From Halalkaliarchaeum sp. AArc-CO (GTDB lineage Archaea; Halobacteriota; Halobacteria; Halobacteriales; Haloferacaceae), in assembly GCF_024972735.1 (NCBI RefSeq), contig NZ_CP087723.1:2604001-2668000 (forward strand): DNA of 64,000 nt, read 5' to 3'. The translations under genes and the position numbers were made by a program. Below are positions 9,090 to 58,769 of this stretch, one piece after another (position 1 is the stretch's first letter; every line of letters begins with the position of its first letter). The notes beneath the pieces are model-generated. The model searched no databases. It was not told where the DNA came from and worked only from the letters and a program-made list of their open reading frames with translations.

Positions 9090-9392
9090 TCAGGACGTCT
9101 CGCCGTACGTCTCCTCGACCGTCTCGCCGTACGTCTCCTCGACCGTCTCGCCGTACGTCTCCTCGAGGTACTCGATGATCCGCGTGCTTTCCGACATCCC
9201 CTCGACGCCGTTCGCCTCGTCGACGAGCACCGGGACGCCGGTCTGGCCGCTGCGTTCCTGCACCTCCGTCCGCTCGTGGTGTACACGGGGGACGGTTCTG
9301 GATTCGTAGTCGAGCTCCAGCTCCGCGAGTTTCTCGCGGACCATCGCACAGTAGGGACAACCCTGCAGTTCATAAAGGACGAGTTCCGTCAT
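9090..9392 (-). CDS. Glutaredoxin/GST-N-type thioredoxin-fold protein with repeated C-terminal tail
   Basis: The ATG at 9392 gives 100 residues (MTELVLYELQGCPYCAMVREKL). CPYC is the glutaredoxin active site, GVPVLVD is the cis-proline loop, and STRIIEYLEETYGE is the end of the thioredoxin fold. It probably reduces disulfides or mixed thiols in the cytoplasm. After the fold, the tail repeats EETYGETV three times, encoded by 24-nt direct repeats. The frame continues upstream to 9590, but that extension has no family similarity. Confidence 0.85.
   Translation of the reverse strand: MTELVLYELQGCPYCAMVREKLAELELDYESRTVPRVHHERTEVQERSGQTGVPVLVDEANGVEGMSESTRIIEYLEETYGETVEETYGETVEETYGETS
9097..9166 (-). 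repeat. 24-nt tandem repeat in the glutaredoxin-like gene
   Basis: Three copies of a 24-nt unit start at 9097, 9121 and 9145; the last two bases of the third copy diverge. The unit length is a multiple of three, so the repeat adds whole eight-residue units (EETYGETV) to the protein tail without shifting the frame. It looks like slippage expansion. Confidence 0.9.
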
Positions 9393-9498
9393 CGGTTCCG
9401 GGTATGCCCCTGAGCAGGATGAACTACCGGGGGTTATGCTCTGGGTGTGCAAAACCGCGAAACCACGCGGGCGGAGTCGCCAAAACGCTTCGCTTGGT

Positions 9499-10962
9499 TC
9501 AGAGGATGAATCCGCCGGTCTGGAGCACGTAGTACAGCGCCAGCACCGCCGCGATGGCGTACTGGCCGGGGACGACGTCACGACCTTCACCCATCGCGAG
9601 CTTGACGATCGGGTACGCGATGATCCCCGCCGCCAGCCCGTCGGCGATCGAGTAGGTGAGCGGCATGATCGTGATCGTCAACACCGCCGACACCGTCCAG
9701 GCGGGGTCCGACCAGTCGATGTCGGTGACGCCCTGGAACATGATGATGCCGACCACGACCAGCGCGATAAAGGAAGCGTAGTCCGGCACGATCGACGCCA
9801 GCGATACCAGCGGGATCGCAAGCAGGAACAGCCCTCCGACGACCAGCGCGGTGAGCCCGGTCCGACCGCCCTCCTCGATTCCGGTCGAGGATTCGATGTA
9901 CGTCGTCACCGTCGAGGTGCCGAGCATCGAACCGACGGTAGTGCCGACCGCGTCCGCCATCAATGGCTTGTCCATCTCCGGGAGGTCGCCCTCCTCGTCG
10001 AGGAAGCCGCCGAACTGGGAGACGCCGATCAGCGTCCCCGCCGTGTCGAAGAAGTCCACGAAGAAGAACGTGAACACGACGAACGCGAACGTAATCGGTT
10101 CCACGTGTGTGAACCCGTCGACGAACGCACCCGCAAGCGGCGTGATGTCCCACTGGACGTCCATCAGCACCGAGAGGAATCCCTCCGTCTGTGTCCGTTC
10201 GAGCAGCTGGGCGTCCACGAGCGTCCCGCGCTCTACGAGCCCGGCCAGGGCGACGACCCATCCGACCACCGCCGTCCCGAGGATGCCGATCACGATGCTG
10301 CCGGTCACGCCGCGAGCCCACAACACGAGTGTGAGTATCAGGCCCGCCAGCGCCACGATCGCCACGGGGTTGGTGAAGATGTCACCCAGCCGGACGAGCG
10401 TTTCGGGATCCCCTACGACGATCTGCATCTCCTGGAGACCGATGAAAAGCAAGAACACGCCGATCCCGGCTCCGACAGCGAACTTCACCGGCTCGGGGAA
10501 CAGCGAGATGATGTACTTGCGGGCGCCGACCGCCGTTAGCAGGATGAAGATCACGCCCTCCACGAACACCGCCGCCAGCGCCGTCTGCCAGGGGATACCG
10601 AAGCCCACGACGACCGAAAAGGCGAAGAAGGCGTTTAGCCCCATCCCCGGCGCGAGCCCGAAGGGCCGTTTCGCGTAAAACGCCATCACCACGATCGCCG
10701 CAATCGATGCCAGAATGGTAACGATCGCCAGCATCTGGAACACCTCCGTCGCCGTGTAGGTCGCCCCGTCGATGACCGCAGTGTCGGCACGCTCTCCTGC
10801 CCCGTGGTCCCACAGGATCGCATACGAGAGGATCGCCGGGTTTACGACGATGATGTAACTCATCGCGAGGAACGTCGTGATCCCCGCGAGAACTTCAGTA
10901 CGGACGTCGGAGCCGTGGTCGTCGACGTCGAAGTACGACGAAAGTGTTTCGCTCAACCCCAT
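9499..10962 (-). CDS. NCS2/AzgA-type nucleobase (purine) permease
   Basis: The ATG at 10962 (MGLSETLSSYFDVDDHGSDV) gives 487 residues. An upstream GTG/ATG extension is unlikely. The N-terminus VRTEVLAGITTFLAMSYII and the later GMGLNAFFAF and ESSTGIEEGGRTGLTALVVG are hallmarks of the AzgA/PbuG adenine-guanine-hypoxanthine permeases. About 12-14 membrane helices are visible. It imports a purine base, presumably with H+ or Na+. The next gene upstream on the same strand encodes a PRTase-fold regulator, and the promoters of the two share a sequence element. Confidence 0.9.
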   Translation of the reverse strand: MGLSETLSSYFDVDDHGSDVRTEVLAGITTFLAMSYIIVVNPAILSYAILWDHGAGERADTAVIDGATYTATEVFQMLAIVTILASIAAIVVMAFYAKRPFGLAPGMGLNAFFAFSVVVGFGIPWQTALAAVFVEGVIFILLTAVGARKYIISLFPEPVKFAVGAGIGVFLLFIGLQEMQIVVGDPETLVRLGDIFTNPVAIVALAGLILTLVLWARGVTGSIVIGILGTAVVGWVVALAGLVERGTLVDAQLLERTQTEGFLSVLMDVQWDITPLAGAFVDGFTHVEPITFAFVVFTFFFVDFFDTAGTLIGVSQFGGFLDEEGDLPEMDKPLMADAVGTTVGSMLGTSTVTTYIESSTGIEEGGRTGLTALVVGGLFLLAIPLVSLASIVPDYASFIALVVVGIIMFQGVTDIDWSDPAWTVSAVLTITIMPLTYSIADGLAAGIIAYPIVKLAMGEGRDVVPGQYAIAAVLALYYVLQTGGFIL

Positions 10963-30582: not shown

Positions 30583-32463
30583 ATGTCTTCCCAGCCAGAC
30601 GGAGAGTACGAACTGCCGGAGGATCGTCTCGAGGAGAGCCAACCGCAGTGTCCGTTCGGCGTCGGCGGCGGCTGCTGCCGGATCTGTTACATGGGTCCGT
30701 GCCGGGTGACCGACGGGGCACACGGAATGGACCGGGGGGTCTGCGGGGCGACGCCGGGGACCGTCGCCGCGCGGAACCTCTACCGGGAGATCGCCGCGGG
30801 TGCCGCGAGTCACGCCGACCACGCCCGCGAAATCGTCGAGGTGCTCGAAGAGATCGCCGACGGCGGGCTGTCGGCGTACGACATCCAGGACCCAGAGAAG
30901 CTCGAGGAGATCGCCGCCGACCTGGGGATCGAGGCCGAAACCGACGACGAAAACGAACTCGCGAAGCTGGTCGCCGAGGCCGCGGTCGAAGACTTCCAGG
31001 GCGCAGGCGAGACGCTCAACTGGCTCGACCGGATGCCCGACGAACAGCGAGAGTTCCTGAGAGAGCAGGGGATCCAGCCGAAACCGAGCGTCGACATGGA
31101 GGTCGCCCGGGCGATGCACCGGACGACACAGGGCAACGACGCCGACCCGGCCCACCTGCTTACCGGGGCGCTGGAGGCGGGGATGGCCGACGGCTACGCC
31201 GGCCTCACGATGGGCACCGACCTCCAGGACGTCGTCTTCGGCCGGCCGCAGCCGGTCGAGACCGAGGCGAACCTGGGTACCCTCGAGGCGGACCAGGTGA
31301 ACATCGCGGTCCACGGCCACTCGCCGGTGCTCAGCGAGATGATCGTCGAGATGGCCGACGAACTCGAGCCGGCAGCTCGCGAGGTGGGAGCCGAGGGGAT
31401 CAACCTCGTCGGGATCTGCTGTACCGGCAACGAGCTGGCCGAACGGCGGGGGATCCCGCTTGCGGCCCACAGCACCCAGGCCGAACTGGCCGTCACCACG
31501 GGCGCGCTGGACGCGATGGTCGCCGATATCCAGTGCATCTGGCCCGGCATCGGCGACGTGATCGAGTGTCACCACACGAAGCTGTTGACGACGACCGACT
31601 ACGTCCGGATTCCGGGCGCCGAACACGTGAGTTTCGACCCCGAGACCGCCGAGGCGGACGCCCGCGAGATCGTCCAGCGGGGGATCGCCGCCTACGAGGA
31701 CCGCAATAGCAGACAGGAGTACGACGTCGAGATCCCCGAGGAACGAACAAGCGCGCTGGTGGGCATTTCGGAGGACTACGTGCTGGAGGTGCTGGAGGCC
31801 GCCTCTCCGGAGGATCCGGTCGCGCCGGTCGTCGACGCGCTCGCAGCCGGCCAGCTGAAAGGGATCGTCGGGATTGTCGGCTGTCCGAATCCGAAACAGC
31901 GCACCGCCGACATGACCGAACGACTGATCGAAGGGTTGCTCGAGGAGAACGTGCTGCCGATCGTCACCGGCTGCATCGGGCACGTCACCGCCCAGGCGGG
32001 CTATCTCGACCCCGCCCGGACCGACGAACTCGCCGGCGACGGACTCGCCGAGGTGCTGCACGCGCTGGGCGACGCCGCCGGACTCGACGGCCCCCTGCCG
32101 CCGGTGTGGCACATGGGTTCCTGTGTCGACAACTCCCGGATCGGCAACCTGGTCCGGGCGATCTCGGAGGGCGCCGACGTCCCGACCAGGGAGCTGCCCG
32201 TCGCCGCCAGCGCGCCGGAGCTCATCGCCGAGAAGGCCGTGAGCATCGGCACGTGGGCGCTGACGCTCGGGCTGCCGGTTCACACCGCGCCGACGCTGCA
32301 CATGGATCAAAGCGAAGAGGTCAGCCGGATCATGACCGAAGACCTGAAAGAGATCACCGGCGGGTACGCGATCCAGGAGGAGGACCCCGACGCGGCGATC
32401 GACGCACTCGTGGCGGCGGTCGACGAACGCCGGCTGGCGCTGTTCGACGAGACGGGAGCGTGA
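30583..32463 (+). CDS. cooS: Ni-containing anaerobic carbon monoxide dehydrogenase catalytic subunit
   Basis: The protein has 626 residues. CO + H2O are converted to CO2 + 2H+ + 2e- at a [Ni-4Fe-5S] C-cluster. Cysteines 23, 31, 32, 35, 40 and 54 have exactly the spacing of the D- and B-cluster ligands of Carboxydothermus CODH-II. The C-cluster ligands also fit: H246 (VHGHSP), C280 (GICCTGNE), C318 (ADIQC), C434 (IVGCPNPKQ), C464 (VTGCIGHV) and C514 (HMGSCVDNSRI). All ligands are present, so it should be active. There is no cdh/acs gene and no ferredoxin-type CooF nearby. The cooC maturation factor follows 6 nt after the stop. Confidence 0.95.
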   Translation: MSSQPDGEYELPEDRLEESQPQCPFGVGGGCCRICYMGPCRVTDGAHGMDRGVCGATPGTVAARNLYREIAAGAASHADHAREIVEVLEEIADGGLSAYDIQDPEKLEEIAADLGIEAETDDENELAKLVAEAAVEDFQGAGETLNWLDRMPDEQREFLREQGIQPKPSVDMEVARAMHRTTQGNDADPAHLLTGALEAGMADGYAGLTMGTDLQDVVFGRPQPVETEANLGTLEADQVNIAVHGHSPVLSEMIVEMADELEPAAREVGAEGINLVGICCTGNELAERRGIPLAAHSTQAELAVTTGALDAMVADIQCIWPGIGDVIECHHTKLLTTTDYVRIPGAEHVSFDPETAEADAREIVQRGIAAYEDRNSRQEYDVEIPEERTSALVGISEDYVLEVLEAASPEDPVAPVVDALAAGQLKGIVGIVGCPNPKQRTADMTERLIEGLLEENVLPIVTGCIGHVTAQAGYLDPARTDELAGDGLAEVLHALGDAAGLDGPLPPVWHMGSCVDNSRIGNLVRAISEGADVPTRELPVAASAPELIAEKAVSIGTWALTLGLPVHTAPTLHMDQSEEVSRIMTEDLKEITGGYAIQEEDPDAAIDALVAAVDERRLALFDETGA

Positions 32464-32469
32464 GATCCG

Positions 32470-33453
32470 ATGTGTGAGGAGTGCGGCTGTCACGAGGGCG
32501 CGGGGCACGACCACGACCACCCACACGACCACGACCACGACCACCCACACGACCACGACCACGACCACCCACACGACCACGACCACGACCACCCACACGA
32601 CCACGACCACGACCACGACCTCGGCGACGACGAACCCGAGTCAGTCGTCGACGGCCCGCTGCGGATCGCGGTGACCGGCAAGGGCGGCGTCGGGAAGTCG
32701 ACGCTGTCGGCCGCGCTTTCCGCGCGGCTCACCCGGGAGGGCGACGTCGTCGCCGTCGACGCCGACCCCGACATGAACCTGGCGGCGACGATCGGCTGCG
32801 CGGAGCCGCCGGCGATCACCCGAAAGCGGGAGCTCATCGAGGACCGGGCCGGCGGCGGGGGGCTCGTGCGGCTCTCCCCCGACGTCGAGGACGTCCTCGA
32901 GAGCCACTCGACCCGGTTCGGCGACGGCGACCGCGGGCGCCTGCTGACGATCGGCGCGCCGGAGGGGGCGAACACGGGGTGTCTGTGTGCCGAAAACAGC
33001 GTCGTCCAGTCACTGGTCCGGTCGGCGCTCGACGCGGACTACGCCGTGCTCGACATGGAGGCCGGCATCGAGCATCTCGGTCGGGGAACAGCGCGCGACG
33101 TCGACGCGATGATCGTGGTCGTCGGCCCGTCGCAGTCGGCAATCGAGACTGCCAAGGGGATCCGGGAGCTGGCGACGGAGATGGGCGTCGAGGAGGTGTA
33201 CGCCGTCGTCAATCGGGTCCGGGAGGGCGAGGGCGAGGCCGTCCGGGAGGCGCTGTCGCTGCCGGTGCTGGAGACGGTGCCGTACGACGAAGACGTCGCC
33301 GCGGCGGCGCTTTCGGGCACCCCGCCCGTCGACGCCAGTGATCGGCTGACCGTCGCCGTCGAACGGATCCTCCGGGGGATCGACTGCCGGATCGACGGCG
33401 CGGACGACGTCACTTCTCGTTTTGTTTCCGCTCCCGGATCGCCTGTCGAGTGA
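32470..33453 (+). CDS. cooC: CODH nickel-insertion ATPase CooC with His-rich N-terminal tail
   Basis: The protein has 327 residues. CooC hydrolyses ATP to load Ni into CooS; Walker A is GKGGVGKST, and the metal-binding CxC is NTGCLCAEN. Before the ATPase there is a tail: MCEECGCHEGAG, then 38 residues of HD/HP repeats with 19 His (residues 13-50). That tail would bind several Ni2+ ions, like the His-rich parts of HypB or CooJ, and an extra CxxCxC cluster sits at the N-terminus. CooC is normally ~250 residues with no such tail. Its 3' end overlaps the convergent kinase gene by 44 nt. Confidence 0.9.
   Translation: MCEECGCHEGAGHDHDHPHDHDHDHPHDHDHDHPHDHDHDHPHDHDHDHDLGDDEPESVVDGPLRIAVTGKGGVGKSTLSAALSARLTREGDVVAVDADPDMNLAATIGCAEPPAITRKRELIEDRAGGGGLVRLSPDVEDVLESHSTRFGDGDRGRLLTIGAPEGANTGCLCAENSVVQSLVRSALDADYAVLDMEAGIEHLGRGTARDVDAMIVVVGPSQSAIETAKGIRELATEMGVEEVYAVVNRVREGEGEAVREALSLPVLETVPYDEDVAAAALSGTPPVDASDRLTVAVERILRGIDCRIDGADDVTSRFVSAPGSPVE
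32507..32621 (+). repeat. Short tandem repeats encoding the His-Asp/His-Pro tail of CooC
   Basis: A 24-nt unit (period of eight codons: HPHDHDHD) built of CAC and GAC codons is repeated four to five times in frame. Codon choice is nearly invariant (CAC for His, GAC for Asp), so the DNA repeat itself can expand or contract by slippage. Confidence 0.85.
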
Positions 33454-36318: not shown

Positions 36319-36372
36319 CGCCGCGATGCACGATTCGCCGCGACGCGCCGCGATGCACGATTCGCCGCGACG
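36319..36372. repeat. Two-copy 27-nt tandem repeat between HAD and Nif3 genes
   Basis: Two identical 27-nt copies (36319-36345 and 36346-36372) lie in the non-coding gap between the convergent genes. The unit is cgccgcgatgcacgattcgc plus cgcgacg. Each unit contains the core GATGCACGATTC. A third partial cacgattc follows. No function is apparent. Confidence 0.85.
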
Positions 36373-36409
36373 CACGATTCCGGTCGTATTCGGCTCCGTT
36401 TTCGAACCG

Positions 36410-58142: not shown

Positions 58143-58769
58143 ATGAAACCGGGGCGCGTCGACTTCTTCGTCGATCTCACCTACGGGCTATTGATCTTCC
58201 TTGCAGTGGTGTTGATCCTCACTGTCGGGACCACAGTCGGGATCGCGTTCGGGCTCGGCGCGCTGGTGTCGTACGGCGTCCACGTCGCCTGGAAGATGGC
58301 CCGGTTCGATCCCGAGTGGATGACAAAGGAGGTGACCGAGAACATCGAGGAGACACTGACAGAGGAGGTTACCGAAAGCGTCGGCGAGAAAGTCACCGAG
58401 GAAGTCACCCAGGAGGTCGGCGAGAAGGTCACCGAAGAGGTGACCCAGGAAGTCGGCGAGAAAGTCACCCAGGAGGTCGGCGAAAAGGTCACCCAGGAGG
58501 TCGGCGAAAAGGTCACCCAGGAGGTCGGCGAGAAAGTCACCGAGGAAGTCACCGCCGAGGTGACCGAAAACGTCACGCGGGAGGTCACCGAGAACGTCGA
58601 AGAGAAAGTCACCGAAAGCGTCGGCGAGAAGGTCACCGAAGAAGTCACCGCCGAGGTGACCGAAAACGTCGAACGGGCGCTGTCGGCCGAGATCGACTCG
58701 ATCATCCAGCAGCTCGAGGAGGTCAACGAACGCATCGACAAGCGACCAAAAGAGGGTGAGGTCGAATGA
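58143..58769 (+). CDS. Membrane protein with a strict four-residue repeat tail
   Basis: The protein has 208 residues. The N-terminal ~50 residues are one or two membrane helices (TYGLLIFLAVVLILTVGTTV, IAFGLGALVSYGVHVAW). From residue 64 to about 184, Val/Ile/Leu occurs every fourth residue without interruption (31 repeats of V-x-E-x), made from VTEE, VTQE, VGEK, VTES and VTEN blocks; the C-terminus is SIIQQLEEVNERIDKRPKEG. It should be a long acidic helix, probably cytoplasmic, as the basic WKMARFDPEW end suggests. The stop overlaps the uspA-like start (ATGA). No family is recognised. Confidence 0.75.
   Translation: MKPGRVDFFVDLTYGLLIFLAVVLILTVGTTVGIAFGLGALVSYGVHVAWKMARFDPEWMTKEVTENIEETLTEEVTESVGEKVTEEVTQEVGEKVTEEVTQEVGEKVTQEVGEKVTQEVGEKVTQEVGEKVTEEVTAEVTENVTREVTENVEEKVTESVGEKVTEEVTAEVTENVERALSAEIDSIIQQLEEVNERIDKRPKEGEVE
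58330..58670 (+). repeat. Imperfect 12/24-nt tandem repeats in the tetrad-repeat gene
   Basis: The DNA repeats units such as gaggtcggcgagaaagtcac and gaggaagtcacc, with 24-nt periods (gaggtcggcgaaaaggtcacc twice in the middle). Synonymous differences (gaaaag/gagaag/gagaaa) show that the protein repeat is conserved beyond recent DNA slippage. Confidence 0.8.

Follow-up and report, generated by a model that had tools for sequence, protein, structure and literature searches.

C. hydrogenoformans CooC-1 (3kje-3kji) combines an ATPase core, a deviant Walker A and a CxC site, and its partner is CooS. It binds one Ni per dimer at 0.4 uM, whereas R. rubrum CooC shows no tight Ni binding (PMC6006190). 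Maturation of CO dehydrogenase (CODH) in R. rubrum also involves CooJ, a separate small protein with a C-terminal His run, whose Ni-binding region (16 His) takes up 4 Ni at 4.3 uM (PMC6006190). Many CO oxidisers lack CooJ and CooT (PMC6006190, PMC4257681), and C. hydrogenoformans and Rubrivivax gelatinosus have active CODH without either (PMC4257681). With one CooC binding Ni, another not doing so tightly, and CooJ and CooT often missing, the nickel source of CooC is still a question in the field.

Nickel-binding tails have been described on other proteins. HypB, a G3E-family GTPase for hydrogenase, can carry an N-terminal prefix before its P-loop, with CxxCGC in E. coli and a His-rich stretch in Bradyrhizobium and Rhizobium (PMC7055735). 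In the E. coli prefix, the three CxxCGC cysteines (Cys2, Cys5, Cys7) and the N-terminal amine hold Ni(II) with a sub-picomolar Kd, while His-rich prefixes bind 4-9 Ni with micromolar affinity where measured (24 His, 9 Ni and 2.3 uM in B. japonicum) (PMC7055735). Within the CODH system, the Ni-CODHs of structural groups B-1 and B-3 carry HxH-rich extensions (4-48 His) on the CODH itself (PMC6344411).

Here we describe a haloarchaeal CooC with a His-rich N-terminal tail. It shares its core, its metal site and its partner with C. hydrogenoformans CooC-1 but not the tail, which that protein lacks (the match starts at its residue 2). As in prefixed HypB, CxxCGC and a His run precede a metal-inserting P-loop NTPase, but this one is a MinD-type ATPase for CODH. 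Unlike CooJ, the His-rich region is fused to the N-terminus of CooC, and unlike in the His-rich Ni-CODHs it sits on the insertion ATPase. Those CODH extensions are the nearest published parallel that we found: the open-access literature searched describes His-rich extensions only on CODH, and we found no description of a His-tailed CooC in it.

The cooC gene, its core and its client

The window, meaning the whole 64,000-nucleotide stretch of DNA analysed, contains cooC 6 nt behind the stop codon of cooS (Table 1). It also contains an archaeal rRNA operon, with a 16S about 90% identical to those of Halorussus, Halorubrum and relatives.

Table 1. Features of the cooS-cooC locus, with positions counted in the window
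Feature	Position	Strand	Evidence
cooS, anaerobic Ni-CO dehydrogenase catalytic subunit, 626 aa, presumed client	30583..32463	+	TIGR01702, 578 bits (cut-off 478)
cooC, Ni-insertion ATPase of MinD/SIMIBI type with N-terminal tail, 327 aa	32470..33453	+	ATG start; 3kje sequence and fold matches
MCEECGCH, HypB-type CxxCGC cap (C2, C5, C7) plus His8	32470..32493	+	HypB_prefix_1 score 28.0 bits, or 13.4 bits with the three Cys substituted
His/Asp/Pro run, residues 13-50, 19 His	32506..32619	+	sequence
24-nt tandem repeat, 4.6 copies, 100% identical, encoding HDHDHPHD-type octapeptides	32506..32616	+	
Acidic linker LGDDEPESVVDGP, tail to core, predicted disordered	32620..32658	+	pLDDT about 50, residues 1-60
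Deviant Walker A GKGGVGKST, residues 70-78	32677..32703	+	
Cys-Leu-Cys (C171, C173), CooC dimer-interface metal site	32980..32988	+	invariant in 23 CooCs; equals Cys112/Cys114 of C. hydrogenoformans CooC-1 (PMC6006190)

Sequence and modelled fold both place the protein in CooC. Among solved structures, the closest relative by sequence is C. hydrogenoformans CooC1 (3kje, E 3.7e-34, with the next family at 1e-7), and a fold search with the AlphaFold2 model also ranked 3kje first (E 2e-17). The model has a mean pLDDT of 78, with core blocks mostly at 75-95 and a tail of about 50 that lacks secondary structure. A MinD/SIMIBI fold with the GKGGVGKT/S Walker A, the CxC site and adjacency to cooS were all found, and both the Walker A and C171-L-C173 are conserved in 23/23 aligned CooCs. 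Together with an NCBIfam profile considered below, the 3kje matches bear out the preliminary description, which had seen a His-rich, Cys-capped tail fused to a standard CooC.

Alignment of CooS revealed the C-cluster, acid-base and type II D-cluster motifs, and no His-rich extension was present at its termini. A regular-expression result in which the CooS proteins of tail-less haloarchaea lacked the acid-base His was rejected, as the alignment shows this residue in all of them. Near cooS there is no other ORF of comparable His density, and no separate CooJ was found in the coo operon.

The histidine-tailed CooC is real. Ahead of the P-loop, the only in-frame starts are ATG1 and GTG68, the latter within the first beta strand. 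With no in-frame start between these two and a P-loop that opens at residue 70, every functional product must include the tail, and a tail-less product is not expected from this gene. The DNA at the tail is a low-complexity repeat that opens several reading frames, as might be seen if a wrong start codon, frame or assembly repeat had created the tail. This explanation is scarcely credible: no alternative start precedes codon 68, and homologous tails in independent genomes already refute it. Three other haloarchaeal CooC tails use other codons and lack the 24-nt repeat, indicating that the tail is not an artefact of the repeat DNA.

Composition of the tail and its likeness to the HypB prefix

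The ORF begins with MCEECGCHEGAGH, and the His/Asp/Pro run then continues up to residue 50. In residues 13-50, the 19 His are accompanied by 15 Asp and 4 Pro in HPHDHDHD units, and His8 brings the number of His before the P-loop to 20. Neighbouring proteins contain 2.0% His, a rate that predicts 0.75 His in a 38-residue stretch (binomial P for at least 19, 1e-22).

We compared the tail with the NCBIfam profile HypB_prefix_1 (NF053667). The full CooC matched over residues 1-57 with 23.6 bits, and the tail alone scored 28.0 bits, slightly below the curated cut-off of 30. Changing Cys to Ser lowered this to 13.4 bits, while neither three composition shuffles nor a construct with the cap intact and the remainder shuffled gave a match. 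These controls indicate that the score depends both on the CxxCGC cap and on the alternation of His. CxxCGC stands straight after Met1 (MCEECGC) in two haloarchaeal CooCs, this one and its genus-mate (G000 and G001). The third Cys is missing in G130 (MCDHCGNH) and G228 (MCDACGRH), and the other haloarchaeal tails scored 19.7 bits, 11.6 bits and no match. A genome search with NF053667 for further prefixed proteins found this locus only (E <= 0.01), which indicates that the profile is too insensitive for the other tails. The shorter tail of the genus-mate weakly resembles His-rich segments of UreE, Ni/Co efflux proteins and DmeF, besides HypB.

Since the score is below the cut-off, we do not file the tail as a member of the HypB prefix family, nor do we file it as CooJ. 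By sequence it appears closer to the HypB N-terminal prefix (CxxCGC plus His) than to CooJ alone. The preliminary description had envisaged a CooJ- or HypB-like store on one chain; the HypB side of this holds, the prefix with its CxxCGC being the closest match, but likeness to CooJ alone does not.

The likeness is confined to the tail, as the HypB G3E GTPase domain (TIGR00073) is absent from the families matched by the tailed CooC. The genome encodes a HypB elsewhere (TIGR00073 match over cut-off, C2:2395986-2396618). Neither this HypB nor those of six other CooS-bearing haloarchaea (L041-L047) have an N-terminal CxxCGC. In 5/7 of these HypB proteins, the last 40 residues include 7-10 His.

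It is also conceivable that tail length and repeats mostly reflect neutral slippage of a short ancestral tail, with the long His run adding little function. The 24-nt repeat of the CooC tail is perfect, the tail length is unlike that of the sister species, and two further in-frame arrays with 24-nt periods lie in the window, at 9096-9166 and 58380-58637. These arrays suggest frequent slippage in this genome, and extra tail units in CooC may accordingly be partly neutral. However, a His-rich composition persists over four haloarchaeal CooCs without the DNA repeat, and slippage concerns the expansion rather than the Cys/His tail as such. We regard neutral slippage as quite unlikely to be the main reason for the length and repeats of the tail.

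Other repeats in the window are recorded here for completeness. The 9096-9166 array, the second in-frame 8-codon array within the window, is a perfect threefold 24-nt repeat (EETYGETV) at the C-terminus of a glutaredoxin-like ORF (9090-9590, minus strand). At 58143-58769 (plus strand), a small protein has a hydrophobic N-terminal segment and long VTEKVTEEV/VGEKVTQEV repeats with 24- to 84-nt periods. Positions 36319-36373 form a perfect 27-nt tandem repeat of 2.0 copies.

Distribution and evolution of CooC tails

CooS exceeded the cut-off in 8/391 sampled Halobacteria genomes, and cooC directly follows cooS in all eight. Half of the eight CooCs are tailed: the one described here, that of the genus-mate (MCEECGCH), G228 and G130, where the gene has 45% G+C. 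These four keep an MCxxCGxH start and a His-rich composition, while tail length and codons differ. The P-loop is preceded by 69 residues with 20 His here and by 49 residues with 11 His in the genus-mate, so the suggestion that tail length may vary holds between two species of one genus. The remaining four CooCs are tail-less and form a single clade inside the haloarchaeal CooC clade; no His-rich protein was found near cooS in their genomes. G228 has a tailed CooC yet no HypB over the cut-off, which argues that there the tail does not serve a HypB-dependent hydrogenase. A plasmid tblastn search returned a single distant match, in which the tail region was unmatched.

Outside haloarchaea, Cys/His tails were present in 3/80 related loci from public genomes. 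The families of these three genomes were then searched for further CooCs. In a desulfuromonad-like family, 7/7 CooCs are tailed, three at the N-terminus (MCDQH...) and four at the C-terminus (PPC(M/T)C...HHH). In a gammaproteobacterial family, 3/3 have an N-terminal tail (MCDT(C/R)A...). The tailed loci are L096, L376 and L377; L132, L383 and L384; and, with the C-terminal tail, L130 and L379-L381. Like the CooC described here, these proteins join a CooC core to a Cys/His-rich terminal tail, but they occupy separate branches of the CooC tree and one group places the tail at the other end. At L096, a bacterial MAG locus, hypA-like and ferredoxin-like genes (807-1181) lie immediately upstream of cooS and the tailed cooC; they follow the end of an ORF that resembles a hydrogenase large subunit.

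A broader Desulfobacterota sample was also screened. A recognisable CooC stood beside cooS in only 19/109 Desulfobacterota cooS loci, and CooC was therefore searched for directly, giving a relative in 165/247 genomes. No further tails were found in about 40 fetched candidates with the longest open frames, a selection that short tails or frames of ordinary length would escape. An internal start (MKxAxS) just ahead of the first strand accounts for nearly all of these long frames. In the genomes sampled, Cys/His-tailed CooCs thus appear to be rare outside haloarchaea and the two bacterial families. The objection foreseen in the preliminary description, that many CooC homologs share the tail, does not hold in general; the architecture is not unique, however, with 4/8 haloarchaeal and ten bacterial CooCs tailed.

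The CooC tree, built without the tail columns by a quick search with SH-aLRT support only, requires four changes of the tail label. A single common origin of all CooC tails was ruled out, as a tree uniting all tailed CooCs was rejected (p-AU 3.3e-42). These data indicate that tails were gained in several separate lineages and at both protein ends. For the haloarchaeal tails, one gain, or one loss of an old tail, would suffice.

Proposed working of the tail

We propose that the tail is probably a module that loads and buffers nickel for the Ni-insertion ATPase to which it is fused. Once Met is removed, the exposed amine may, together with Cys2, Cys5 and Cys7, bind Ni(II) tightly, in the manner of E. 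coli HypB. Cytosolic Ni(II) would be captured and buffered at several sites of micromolar affinity supplied by the approximately 20 His. Being disordered and attached to the ATPase, the tail could then pass the ion on to CxC at the interface of the CooC dimer, and ATP binding or hydrolysis would drive Ni insertion into the C-cluster of CooS. A single chain would in this way do the work of CooC and CooJ in Rhodospirillum rubrum. Published data leave room for such tail-to-CxC loading, given Ni binding by C. hydrogenoformans CooC-1, the lack of tight binding by the R. rubrum protein and the existence there of CooJ as a separate chain.

The nickel-module reading is supported by the CooC identity in sequence and fold, the cooS operon in eight haloarchaea, the HypB_prefix_1 match and the recurrence of tails. 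It is weakened by the tail-less state of half of the haloarchaeal CooCs and most of those elsewhere, by the loss of the third Cys in G130 and G228, and by a HypB_prefix_1 score that is under the cut-off and lower still in the other haloarchaeal tails. Two further points count against it: His-rich tails take up Zn, Co and Cu as well, and K. aerogenes UreE can dispense with its His-rich tail (PMC7055735).

Metal promiscuity raises another explanation, in which the tail is a general buffer or detoxifying sponge for Zn, Co, Cu and Ni that happens to sit on CooC without supplying the CxC site. Zn, Cu, Co, Cd and Mn are likewise bound by His-rich HypB tails (PMC7055735), a single site of C. hydrogenoformans CooC-1 accepts both Zn and Ni (PMC6006190), and the metal cannot be fixed from sequence. 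We nevertheless consider a sponge unlikely, because the tail sits on an insertion ATPase adjoining cooS, begins with a HypB-type Ni cap rather than being a random His run, and recurs on CooC in separate lineages.

It is very improbable that the tail chiefly serves docking or dimerisation, with partners such as HypA or CooS and metal acting as structural glue. Tails do make protein contacts in the HypB-HypA and SlyD-HypB systems (PMC7055735), and at the tailed bacterial locus L096 a hypA-like gene precedes cooS by two genes. Yet the tail is predicted to be disordered, its extreme His/Asp content and variable length are unlike a docking motif, and either terminus is used, depending on the lineage.

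The tail had also been offered as the reason why CooJ and CooT are absent. This argument carries little weight: CooCs with no tail manage without CooJ and CooT too, as the active CODHs of C. hydrogenoformans and Rx. gelatinosus attest (PMC4257681), and tail-less haloarchaea have no His-rich substitute near cooS.

Returning to the nickel module, these comparisons suggest that a CooC ATPase can carry its own nickel supply. More tentatively, and with rather less confidence than we would need to assert it, CooC may repeatedly evolve a fused two-tier nickel module, in which nickel is relayed along one chain from a His reservoir through a tight Cys cap to CxC and on to the C-cluster, making CODH maturation independent of separate nickel carriers. 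The tailed and tail-less CooCs of the same haloarchaeal clade offer a ready comparison between a fused and an absent carrier. Repeated gain of tails on two unrelated insertion NTPases, HypB and CooC, would represent a convergent solution to nickel supply.
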